A stretch of DNA of 64,000 nucleotides. It comes from Brevundimonas sp. G8 (GTDB lineage Bacteria > Pseudomonadota > Alphaproteobacteria > Caulobacterales > Caulobacteraceae). A program made the position numbers and the translations under genes. Numbering within the stretch: the first letter of the stretch is position 1; each line of letters opens with the position of its first letter. The notes beneath the pieces were generated by a model. The model was not told the origin of the DNA and searched no databases. It saw only the letters and a program-made list of their open reading frames with translations. The stretch covers positions 2,802,993-2,866,992 of the forward strand of contig NZ_LR732816.1 of NCBI RefSeq assembly GCF_902506205.1, written 5' to 3'. Positions 32,059 to 64,000 of the stretch are shown one piece after another.

Positions 32059-32156
32059 AGCCTTCCGGTTCACGAAAACGCGAAGCCTCTTGGCGCAAGG
32101 CGTTGAGACGTCTTATGTTTCATCTCCCTGTTCAACAGTCGAAAGGAGGTGATCCA

Positions 32157-32222
32157 GTGTCTCATTGTCATCAATCGCGAGCGGCAGCCGCGACCCTGGT
32201 CCTCGGAGAGGGCCTGGTCTGA
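32157..32222 (+). CDS. 21-residue ORF behind an extreme Shine-Dalgarno
   Basis: GTG start, product beginning MSHCHQSRAAAATLV and ending GEGLV. GGAGG lies seven bases upstream, ideal spacing, within a 14-base perfect complement to the 16S tail. No family is recognised, and no codon run suggests attenuation of a neighbour. Whether the peptide or the RNA matters is unknown. Confidence 0.45.
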   Translation: MSHCHQSRAAAATLVLGEGLV

Positions 32223-32270
32223 TCCTTTCAGACTGAGTTGCGGCCGGACCGTTCGCGGTCAGGCAATGAA

Positions 32271-32301
32271 GGGCCGCCGGGGAAACCCGGCGGCCCTTTT
32301 T
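32271..32301 (+). terminator. Strong intrinsic terminator
   Basis: A perfect 11-bp stem GGGCCGCCGGG with a GAAA loop, then TTTTT. It ends the small transcript and lies 8 bp before the convergent exoD-like stop codon. Confidence 0.9.
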
Positions 32302-61488: not shown

Positions 61489-62859
61489 ATGACACGCTGG
61501 ACCCCCGATAGCTGGAGAACCAAGACCGCCCTGCACATGCCGGCGGACTATCCAGATCCCAAAGCCCTCGCCGTCGTCGAGGACGAGTTGCGCGCCCTGC
61601 CGCCGCTCGTCTTCGCCGGCGAGGCCCGCCGCCTGACGTCGAAACTGGCCCAGGTAGAGCGGGGTGACGCCTTTCTGCTTCAGGGCGGCGACTGCGCCGA
61701 GAGCTTCAAGGAGTTCTCGACCGACAATATTCGCGACACCTTCCGCCTGATCCTGCAGATGGCGGTGGTCCTGACCTTCGCCGGGCGCAAGCCGGTGGTG
61801 AAGGTCGGCCGGATCGCCGGTCAATTCGCCAAGCCGCGTTCGTCGCCGCTGGAAGAGATCGACGGCGTCGAGCTGCCCAGCTATCGCGGCGACATCATCA
61901 ACGGCATGGGTTTCACGCCGGAAGAGCGCGTGCCCGATCCGCAGCGCCTGATCCGGGCCTATAATCAGTCGGCCTCGACGCTGAACCTGCTGCGGGCCTT
62001 CGCCGGCGGGGGCTATGCCGATCTCTACAACATCCATCGCTGGACCTTGGGCTTTGCGGGCGACAATGCCGCCGGCGCCCAGTACCGCGAGTTGGCTGAC
62101 AAGATCACCGAGGCCCTGGCCTTCATGGAGGCGGTCGGCGTCACGCCCGAAACTCACCCGGACCTGAGTCGGGTCGAAGTGTTCACCAGCCATGAAGCCC
62201 TGCTGCTGAACGTCGAGAGTGCCCTGACACGTCTGGACGGCGGATCGGGCGAATGGTTCGACACCTCGGCGCACATGCTGTGGATCGGCGAGCGCACGCG
62301 TCAGCTTGATGGATCGCACGTGGAGTTCATGAAGGGGATCAAGAACCCTATCGGTGTGAAGTGTGGGCCGACCATGACGTCCGACGACCTTCTGCCGCTG
62401 ATCGACGCGCTGAACCCCGATAACATTTCGGGCCGTCTGACGCTGATCGGTCGCTTCGGTCACGACAAGGTGGGCGAACGTCTGCCCAAGCTGATGCGGG
62501 AAGTGAAGGCGTCTGGCCGCAAGGTCATCTGGTCGATCGACCCGATGCACGGCAATACGCTGAAGGCCGGAAACGGCTACAAGACCCGGCCGTTCGACCG
62601 GATCCTGGGCGAGGTGCGGACCTTCATCGACGTGGCCGAGGCGGAAGGGGTTCACCCCGGCGGCGTCCACCTGGAAATGACCGGCCAGAACGTCACAGAA
62701 TGCATCGGCGGCGCCCAGGCGGTGACCGAGGACGACCTGTCCAACCGCTATCACACCCATTGCGATCCGCGCCTGAACGCCGACCAGGCGCTGGAGTTGG
62801 CTTTCCTGGTGGCTGAGCGCCTCAAGGCGGGACGGGTCGCGCAGTCGGCGGCGGCCTAG
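61489..62859 (+). CDS. Class II DAHP synthase
   Basis: A 456-residue 3-deoxy-7-phosphoheptulonate synthase of the plant-like class II. It condenses PEP and erythrose-4-phosphate, the first shikimate step. [47 protein letters not shown] and PVGVKCGP-like IGVKCGPTM, then [15 protein letters not shown] with metal ligands, are typical. Residues for allosteric control are not resolved by eye. The aromatic genes downstream share its direction. Confidence 0.96.
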
Positions 62860-62950: not shown

Positions 62951-63526
62951 ATGGAAGTTGCGGCCCAGATTGACGACAAGCCCGGTCGGGTCGCCTATCA
63001 GGGCGCGCCCGGCTCGTTCAGCCACGAGGCCTGTCTGGCCTTGCGGCCATGGGACGAGGCGGTGGCGTTCGAGACCTTCGCCCAGGCTCTGGATGCGCTC
63101 AGGGTCGGTAACTGCGGTTGCGCCCTGATCCCTGTCGAGAACTCGACCATCGGCGTTGTTGAGCCGGCGGCGACGTTGGTGGGCGGGCTTGGCGTGGAGC
63201 CGGTCGCCGAGGTTTGGCGGCCCATCCGTCATGCGCTAATGGCGACGCCGGGGGCGCGGCTGTCGGATATCAAGACGGTCGAGAGCCACCCCATCGCCCT
63301 GGCTCAGTGCAAAGGCACGCTGGCCGGCCTGAACGTCGAGGTGATCGAGCATTTCGACACCGCTGGCGCGGCGCGCGATGTCGCTGAAGCGGGCGATCCG
63401 ACGCGAGCCGCCATCGCCCCGGTCGGCGCGGCCGAGGTCTATGGCCTGTCGATCCTGCGCAACGACTTGCAGGATTCCAGCGATAATCAGACGCGTTTTG
63501 TCCTGTTGAGCTTCCCTGAGGGTTGA
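62951..63526 (+). CDS. pheA: Prephenate dehydratase lacking the ACT domain
   Basis: A 191-residue prephenate dehydratase making phenylpyruvate for Phe synthesis. RVAYQGAPGSFSHEACL, CALIPVENSTIGVV and VESHPIALAQC are signatures, and NQTRFVLL contains the catalytic TRF motif. The protein stops there, so the usual C-terminal ACT domain (ESRP, GALV motifs) for Phe feedback is missing. No frameshifted ACT remnant is evident downstream. The leader-like ORF and a chorismate mutase follow. Confidence 0.92.
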   Translation: MEVAAQIDDKPGRVAYQGAPGSFSHEACLALRPWDEAVAFETFAQALDALRVGNCGCALIPVENSTIGVVEPAATLVGGLGVEPVAEVWRPIRHALMATPGARLSDIKTVESHPIALAQCKGTLAGLNVEVIEHFDTAGAARDVAEAGDPTRAAIAPVGAAEVYGLSILRNDLQDSSDNQTRFVLLSFPEG

Positions 63527-63559
63527 CGGCGCACGGTCTTTGCGTCCTTAAGACCTGCA

Positions 63560-63578
63560 CGGATCGCAAAACGATCCG
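63560..63578 (+). terminator. Hairpin after pheA
   Basis: A perfect 7-bp stem CGGATCG with loop CAAAA, 33 bp past the pheA stop codon and 18 bp before the leader-like ORF. No T run, so its role is uncertain. Confidence 0.35.
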
Positions 63579-63596
63579 CATAACCGGAACCGGACC

Positions 63597-63698
63597 ATGT
63601 CCCGCCAGCGCGCTCTTTCTGTTTCTTCCGACCGTTCGCGCGCGGTTTCCGGCCTCTATTTTGGCTACGGCTTTTACGGCTTTCGATACGCCGGCTGA
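63597..63698 (+). CDS. Putative Phe/Tyr leader peptide
   Basis: A 33-residue frame from ATG 63597 to TGA 63698. After an unremarkable start it contains LYFGYGFYGFRYAG: four Tyr and three Phe within 11 residues (21-31), immediately before the stop. Downstream, CCGCTCT/AGAGCGG (63739-63757) forms a hairpin, and GCCGG at 63690-63694 could pair instead with CCGGC at 63732-63736, overlapping its base. This layout fits ribosome-stalling attenuation of the chorismate mutase gene. No T run follows, so the mechanism (termination or translation) is open. Ribosome binding is weak. Confidence 0.6.
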   Translation: MSRQRALSVSSDRSRAVSGLYFGYGFYGFRYAG

Positions 63699-63738
63699 GG
63701 CGTCGGGCGCACTCCGTCCCTGACAGTCTCACCGGCGA

Positions 63739-63757
63739 CCGCTCTGAACCAGAGCGG
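63739..63757 (+). promoter_or_regulatory. Candidate attenuator hairpin
   Basis: CCGCTCT-GAACC-AGAGCGG, a perfect 7-bp stem that can be extended by GGCGA/TCGCC across a bulge. It lies between the leader-like ORF and chorismate mutase, 51 bp before the latter's ATG. Confidence 0.5.
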
Positions 63758-63807
63758 CTGTTCGCCCCTGCACATATCGAAATTCAGAATGCCGAAAGCC
63801 CAATCCC

Positions 63808-64000
63808 ATGCCCAATTCCAACGTCCAGCAAGTGTGGCCTGACATGGTCGACCTGACGCCCGAGCAGCAGGCGCTCGCCGCCCTGCGCGCCGAAATCGAC
63901 AGCATCGACGACCAGATTCTTGCCCTGTTCGAGCAGCGCCTGGCCGTCGCCGCCACCGTCGGCCGCGCCAAGGATGCGCCCAGCGGACCGCATACCAAGC
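63808..64000 (+). CDS. Chorismate mutase, AroQ type (3' truncated)
   Basis: The first 64 residues of a protein cut by the window edge. LAALRAEIDSIDDQILALFEQRLAVAATVGRAKDA is the first helix of the AroQ chorismate mutase domain, with the conserved Arg, Asp and Lys, converting chorismate to prephenate. ATG 63808 is taken; 63844 is possible. Whether another domain is fused further on cannot be seen. It supplies the substrate of the dehydratase upstream and may be controlled by the leader-like ORF. Confidence 0.85.
   Translation, partial: MPNSNVQQVWPDMVDLTPEQQALAALRAEIDSIDDQILALFEQRLAVAATVGRAKDAPSGPHTK

Follow-up and report, generated by a model that had tools for sequence, protein, structure and literature searches.

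A conserved long-range RNA pairing between aromatic leader codons and the chorismate mutase Shine-Dalgarno region in Brevundimonas

The window, a 64,000-nucleotide stretch of DNA from Brevundimonas sp. G8 (C1:2802993-2866992 of a 3.32-Mb single-contig genome), carries on its plus strand, in this order, the genes for a class II DAHP synthase and a prephenate dehydratase, a short leader ORF and the gene for a chorismate mutase (Table 1). The dehydratase is the sole PF00800 match of the genome, and we call it ACT-less in the sense that it matches just positions 5-181 of a 283-position NCBIfam model. The whole mutase has 252 amino acids (L002:3301-4059), and its closest match, at 98% identity, was from Brevundimonas intermedia B-10. 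Its Pfam CM_2 domain is a type II chorismate mutase domain; residues from about 108 to 252 make up a C-terminal domain of some 145 amino acids without a Pfam match. For this domain, the AlphaFold model (mean pLDDT 74.6) matched no PDB entry at an E value of 0.001 or below; its weak structural matches included GqqA (second-ranked, E 0.028) and LysR-type effector domains. The genome holds two CM_2 matches, the second a gene of about 110 amino acids in another place (L312:1471-1803; G000 C1:2928745-2928978), and among the ORFs of at least 25 amino acids listed around that gene none was rich in aromatic residues.

Table 1. Genes, sequence elements and helices of the chorismate mutase locus, in window coordinates
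Feature	Position	Strand	Basis
Class II DAHP synthase	61489-62859	+	
Prephenate dehydratase, 191 aa, catalytic domain alone	62951..63526	+	
-35-like promoter box TTGACG, which overlaps the dehydratase stop	63523..63528	+	conservation
7-bp hairpin CGGATCG-CAAAA-CGATCCG, after the promoter-like box and ahead of the leader; some clades only	63560..63578	+	sequence
Leader ORF, 33 codons, MSRQRALSVSSDRSRAVSGLYFGYGFYGFRYAG-TGA; 4 Tyr and 3 Phe codons, no Trp	63597..63698	+	
Element a, GGCTTTCGATA, anti-Shine-Dalgarno arm formed by leader codons Gly-Phe-Arg-Tyr	63678..63688	+	
Element b, CGCCGGC-TGAGG (end of Tyr codon, Ala, Gly, stop, two bases), pairs with e	63689..63700	+	
Inner hairpin c:d, arms about 63702-63709 and 63715-63724	63702..63724	+	added by eye
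Element e, TCTCACCGGCG, partner of b	63727..63737	+	
Hairpin f:g, CCGCTCTG-AAC-CAGAGCGG, perfect 8 bp, compensatory changes	63739-63746 with 63750-63757	+	
Element i, TATCGAAA, second site complementary to leader codons TTTCGATA	63775..63782	+	
Element j, GCCGAAAGCC, mutase Shine-Dalgarno region (GAAAG 63794-63798), complementary to leader GGCTTTCG	63791..63800	+	
Chorismate mutase start, CM_2 domain and C-terminal domain	63808..64000 (runs past window end)	+	

The leader ORF is real and conserved. A preliminary description of this DNA had pointed to 33 codons with seven aromatic codons among residues 21-31, then a stop, a hairpin and the mutase start, and this layout was confirmed from the sequence. 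The aromatic codons are numbers 21, 22, 24, 26, 27, 29 and 31; among 820 ORFs of 10-80 amino acids, the window leader alone has at least five Phe or Tyr within 12 residues, and it has seven. In a sample of the genus, 126 of 131 genomes gave a mutase match and 110 loci were fetched; we counted the 109 in which tblastn found both mutase and dehydratase, leaving out L106, whose stretch gave no mutase match. A Phe/Tyr-bearing ORF lies between dehydratase and mutase in all 109. It invariably ends in TGA, preceded by the residues FRYAG in 105 loci, FRRAG in three and FRHAG in one, and an ATG stands 24-42 codons ahead of that stop in 108. Richness varies from three to eight aromatics in the best 12 residues.

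Conservation of the aromatic codons in relatives had been proposed as a check on the leader, and they are indeed conserved and in frame: at codons -8 to -13 from the stop, Phe or Tyr accounts for 341 of 636 triplets, as against 38/636 and 105/636 in the other frames, and none of the 106 leaders counted has a Trp codon. Codons -5 (TTT), -4 (CGA), -2 (GCC) and -1 (GGC) do not vary in any of the 107 distinct leaders, whereas the Phe codon at -8 is split between TTT (36) and TTC (37); this invariant synonymous choice, set against mixed usage nearby, points to a constraint at the RNA level on element a. In a codon-position test, the N-terminal part of the leader showed 489, 563 and 806 differences at codon positions 1, 2 and 3, versus 348, 422 and 347 in a control stretch ahead of the ATG. 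Since its nonsynonymous codon changes (942) exceed the synonymous ones (634), the N-terminal peptide is just weakly constrained, as for a leader whose peptide matters little.

Upstream of the leader, TTGAC occurs near the dehydratase stop in 104 of the 109 loci, with the exact overlap in 93. A consensus scan for a sigma-70 site found none, so the promoter is a putative one. In clades with short leaders, the distance from TTGAC to the ATG is small enough for the mRNA of the leader to be possibly leaderless.

RNAalifold, given no structure and 47 sequences that begin at the aromatic codons and reach the mutase start, proposed the helices a:j, b:e and f:g. Helix a:j joins the leader codons G-F-R, GGCUUUCG (63678-63685), with CGAAAGCC (63793-63800) at the mutase Shine-Dalgarno. 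In b:e, CGCCGG-UGAGG, which contains the leader stop, pairs with the conserved downstream CCUC-CCGGCG. The structure work covered nested helices only, and both b:e (with c:d inside) and f:g are nested within a:j. The sequence of c:d differs between clades with pairing partly kept, and its innermost pairs are open in many rows. The hairpin had been described as having a competing pairing option. The consensus structure does not support this, as f:g and the other conserved downstream helix, b:e, use separate bases and are compatible. The conserved long-range pairing links the leader codons to the mutase Shine-Dalgarno region, not to the f:g hairpin.

Covarying stems, which the preliminary description had suggested looking for in related genomes, are present. 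Over all helices, c:d included, 92.0% of 1483 cells pair versus 40-51% with the partners slid, and 52 cells show double changes versus a shuffled mean of 20.4. For a:j alone, 96.5% of cells pair (22-68% when slid), with 4 double-change cells versus 0.8 in shuffles; its pairs are mostly invariant or vary from G-C to G-U, both sides change in just two of the eight, and 35 of 500 shuffles equalled two of five measures while none equalled the other three. An automatic rule (GAA(A/G)G 5-11 nt ahead of the start codon) placed a Shine-Dalgarno in 102 of 109 loci and none in seven; it misplaced the site in at least five rows (L019, L023, L024, L026, L108), which stay in the duplex, swap and 100-sequence folding counts. 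When leaders and ribosome-binding sites were swapped between species in 47 non-redundant rows, two of them with a misplaced site, the predicted duplex became weaker, with -17.41 for the native pairs versus a permuted mean of -16.76 (sd 0.26, permutation p 0.007). Individually, the duplex of element a with the ribosome-binding site was better than shuffles at 0.05 in 78 of 107 cases and not in the other 29. The minimum free energy structure of the window pairs leader GGCUUU, CGGC and UUUCGAUA with AAAGCC, GCCG and UAUCGAAA upstream of the start, a longer duplex than the consensus a:j helix. Of 42 other long ORFs of the window, chosen by length, none has YGAAAGYY before its start, two have GAAAG, and 18 have GGAG, AGGA or GAGG. 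In 63500-64000 no Rfam family, Phe_leader, Trp_leader and T-box included, matched at the gathering score, nor did any when E values up to 5 were allowed.

We simulated ribosome occupancy by masking a 32-nt footprint at successive positions in 41 sequences, the Shine-Dalgarno being sought near the start only and set by hand for L055. The mean unpaired probability of the Shine-Dalgarno was 0.22 in the free RNA versus 0.38-0.52 with the A site at codons -10 to +2. It was 0.20-0.24 with the A site at +3 to +9 and rose again with the mask further downstream. The conserved aromatic codons -8, -7, -5 and -3 fall within the open zone. With the A site at -11 to -14 the mean was as closed as in the free RNA or more so (0.146-0.197 versus 0.219), and it is here that the first aromatic codon stands in 72 of 107 distinct leaders, window included; in 26 more it is at -15 or -16. 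Given these early codons and the lack of opening at -11 to -14, severe starvation may fail to induce, or only five of the seven aromatic codons in the window may be regulatory. On this model, aromatic codons at -11 to -14 would at best delay the ribosome on its way and at worst reduce induction when starvation is severe.

The prediction for the window itself varies with the stretch folded: in one fold, placing a ribosome on the last Phe codon took the probability from 0.21 to 0.17, and in the 41-sequence simulation it went from 0.13 in the free RNA to 0.27-0.48 for codons -10 to 0. Over 100 sequences, a simulated stall raised opening in 78 and brought it above 0.5 in just 33. A simulated ribosome held at the leader stop also opens the site. 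The same switch is predicted in two more genera, g10 (L188, L189) and g9 (L192).

Taken together, the element is probably a translational attenuator of chorismate mutase that senses charged tRNA-Phe and tRNA-Tyr. When both charged tRNAs are plentiful, ribosomes would leave the leader fast, a:j and b:e would form, and the mutase start would be hidden. When charging is low, ribosomes would dwell on the Phe and Tyr codons, from about codon -10 to the leader stop, where they would cover a and b, free the mutase Shine-Dalgarno and turn the mutase on. The control codons thus most likely double as the Shine-Dalgarno blocker. A leader with Phe and Tyr codons and no Trp fits this reading, because chorismate mutase feeds both the Phe and the Tyr branch. 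We infer the stalling of the ribosome, the response to Phe and Tyr, and repression by helix a:j from the conservation and the folding predictions. As for attenuation by a stalled ribosome, which the preliminary description had proposed, exposure of the mutase start stands on average in the folding simulations; its classical, transcriptional form is not supported, there being no U-tract.

In that classical form, a stall would shift an antiterminator against f:g as terminator, whether intrinsic or Rho-dependent in the gap between leader and mutase. The leader with its control codons and the stable GC-rich hairpin that follows would suit such a mechanism, and Caulobacter, a relative, is reported to use it at an ilv operon (PMC4117421). 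Yet in 107 distinct segments there is no 8-nt window with five T just past the hairpin, and T-runs do not exceed four between a point 60 nt beyond the leader stop and the mutase start. With no U-run after it, f:g was rejected as an intrinsic terminator. A terminator scan found no terminator-like site at the locus, but the scan is not very sensitive, since it also found none downstream of the mutase, where a hairpin and T-run can be seen by eye. Helices b:e and f:g, sharing no bases, are not mutually exclusive, and the leader codons have the Shine-Dalgarno region as their conserved partner, a pairing that termination would not require. We therefore regard transcription attenuation as unlikely here. 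Even less probable is a protein- or ligand-binding RNA element whose leader is translated incidentally. The strong conservation of TTTCGATACGCCGG and CCGGCGACCG as nucleotides, even in g3 without Shine-Dalgarno pairing, would agree with it, and the same argument was made for the actinobacterial LEU element, in part because mutations of the leucine codons reportedly left regulation unchanged (PMC1262725). The in-frame enrichment of Phe and Tyr upstream of the core, the lack of Trp and the kept start codon would, however, be unexpected if the ORF went unread.

The leader peptide might instead act as a nascent chain, with the FRYAG-ending peptide responding to free Phe or Tyr by arresting the ribosome, much as TnaC does with Trp. 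The near-invariance of that C-terminus and the opening of the site by a ribosome at the leader stop speak for this. Selection on the peptide alone, however, leaves the invariant synonymous positions of TTT, CGA, GCC and GGC unexplained. Tyr at -3 (by Arg or His) and Gly at -6 (by Asp, Glu or Ala) are each replaced in 4 of 107 distinct leaders, and the variable upstream zone keeps its Phe/Tyr content and not its sequence; we consider nascent-chain sensing most improbable. A ribosomal frameshift from leader into mutase was also considered and rejected: the mutase frame hits a stop in the window, and leader-mutase distances differ by non-multiples of three. Read in the mutase frame, the conserved core gives AFDTPAEA, and at one locus (L188/L243) this frame continues without a stop into the mutase.

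A translational attenuator of the kind preferred here has partial counterparts elsewhere. The rtpA (anti-TRAP) leader of Bacillus subtilis is said to have been described by Chen and Yanofsky in 2003 and 2004 as a coding region that senses uncharged tRNA and controls the translation start of the next gene. Its codons are reportedly for Trp, and a ribosome at the leader stop is said to block the Shine-Dalgarno, whereas here the ribosome would free it. Nearest in layout is the LEU element upstream of leuA in Actinobacteria, where a run of leucine codons pairs with the leuA Shine-Dalgarno box and the authors thought control by leader translation unlikely (PMC1262725). Both systems have a leader ORF with a run of codons for a pathway product; pairing of control codons with the next Shine-Dalgarno is found in most Brevundimonas, in g9 and in g10, and not in g3. 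They differ in codons (Leu there, Phe and Tyr here), gene (leuA, chorismate mutase), group (Actinobacteria, Caulobacteraceae) and fold, a pseudoknot or alternative hairpin there and nested b:e and f:g here.

The enterobacterial pheL-pheA leader also precedes a gene that encodes a chorismate mutase, and it responds to Phe-charged tRNA (PMC11802643, PMC1183508). As described there, it acts on transcription and on Phe only, whereas the present element has both Phe and Tyr codons, no U-tract and a sequestered Shine-Dalgarno. It shares with pheL- and trpL-type leaders the richness in product codons, and lacks their U-run terminator and mutually exclusive helices. In Corynebacterium glutamicum, the aroR-aroF leader of aromatic biosynthesis has Phe-Tyr-Phe codons; its target is the transcription of a DAHP synthase operon, and supplying Tyr was reported to make no difference (PMC11802643). 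Ribosome profiling of Caulobacter named leaders at trpS and an ilv operon, and the word 'chorismate' does not occur in the main text of that study (PMC4117421). Our search of the literature on leader peptides and attenuation at chorismate mutase, in alphaproteobacteria, Caulobacter and Brevundimonas, with subscription papers mostly outside it, did not find the element described. It would be a well-sampled alphaproteobacterial case of control codons doubling as a Shine-Dalgarno blocker, an arrangement already described for actinobacterial leuA. More than 100 natural variants and covarying helices make the idea of codons as antisense directly testable.

A pattern search of 299 genomes of the order matched 26 of 27 Brevundimonas and, with one mismatch, one other genome. 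A covariance model built from 48 sequences was then searched in 259 genomes of the family. Its strong matches (E 1.9e-10 or better, one per genome) came from 59 of the 60 Brevundimonas genomes and from six others, in g3, g9 and g10, partly by construction, because five of those six and many of the Brevundimonas genomes had fed the model; G167 (g10) had not, and its strong match (L308) has the leader on a contig that ends before the mutase. Four more genomes gave weak matches of 27.7-35.4 bits (L306, L307, L309, L310), which on reading showed no aromatic leader ahead of a mutase and were taken as chance; G129 has a second, weak match. In g9 and g10 the leader stands directly ahead of the mutase, with the dehydratase elsewhere. 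The g3 genomes keep the leader, b:e and f:g, and their Shine-Dalgarno is not complementary.

We also compared the dehydratases. In 30 genomes of 21 other genera, a PF00800 search found the enzyme in 20 genera. In g3, g9, g10 and g17 it stops at most six residues past the catalytic domain (a contig end truncates a second g10 copy); in the remaining 16 genera it runs on for 88-110 residues. We call the latter ACT-bearing by these 88-110 residues after the PDT domain; the Pfam ACT model, run on three long dehydratases, gave a weak match (E 0.012) in one and none in two. Of five ACT-less genera, four (Brevundimonas, g3, g9 and g10, not g17) have strong matches to the element, versus none of the 16 long-form genera, many genera being represented by one genome. 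A search of one g17 genome turned up no leader. As the genera are related, the correlation amounts to one or a few events and is not a statistic.

The preliminary description had held that the leader supplies the feedback lost with the ACT domain of the upstream dehydratase. The correlation agrees with this, whereas g17 without a leader and the dehydratase lying elsewhere in g9 and g10 do not. With the leader at the mutase and the dehydratase elsewhere, what would be replaced is feedback on the pathway, not on the dehydratase. Tentatively, and with some doubt, we suggest that in one Caulobacteraceae lineage loss of the dehydratase ACT domain may have been offset by the self-antisense mutase leader. 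Control would have passed from allosteric to translational, by tRNA charging, and one step upstream, to the enzyme that feeds both Phe and Tyr. The link to ACT-less dehydratases makes it possible to test whether RNA attenuation can, over evolution, take the place of allosteric feedback.

Three further observations were made along the way. The near-complete genome G038, which carries the same genus label, is without the leader element and has a marginal mutase match (E 4.9e-5) and two PF00800 matches. At one g3 locus (L191:2013-2140), six T in a row stand about eight bases behind the leader hairpin, and the leader is without the stop that usually comes after FRYAG; g3 may work by a different mechanism. 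Elsewhere in the window, positions 32133-32297 match the Rfam model of the Caulobacter sRNA CC2171 at 91.2 bits.
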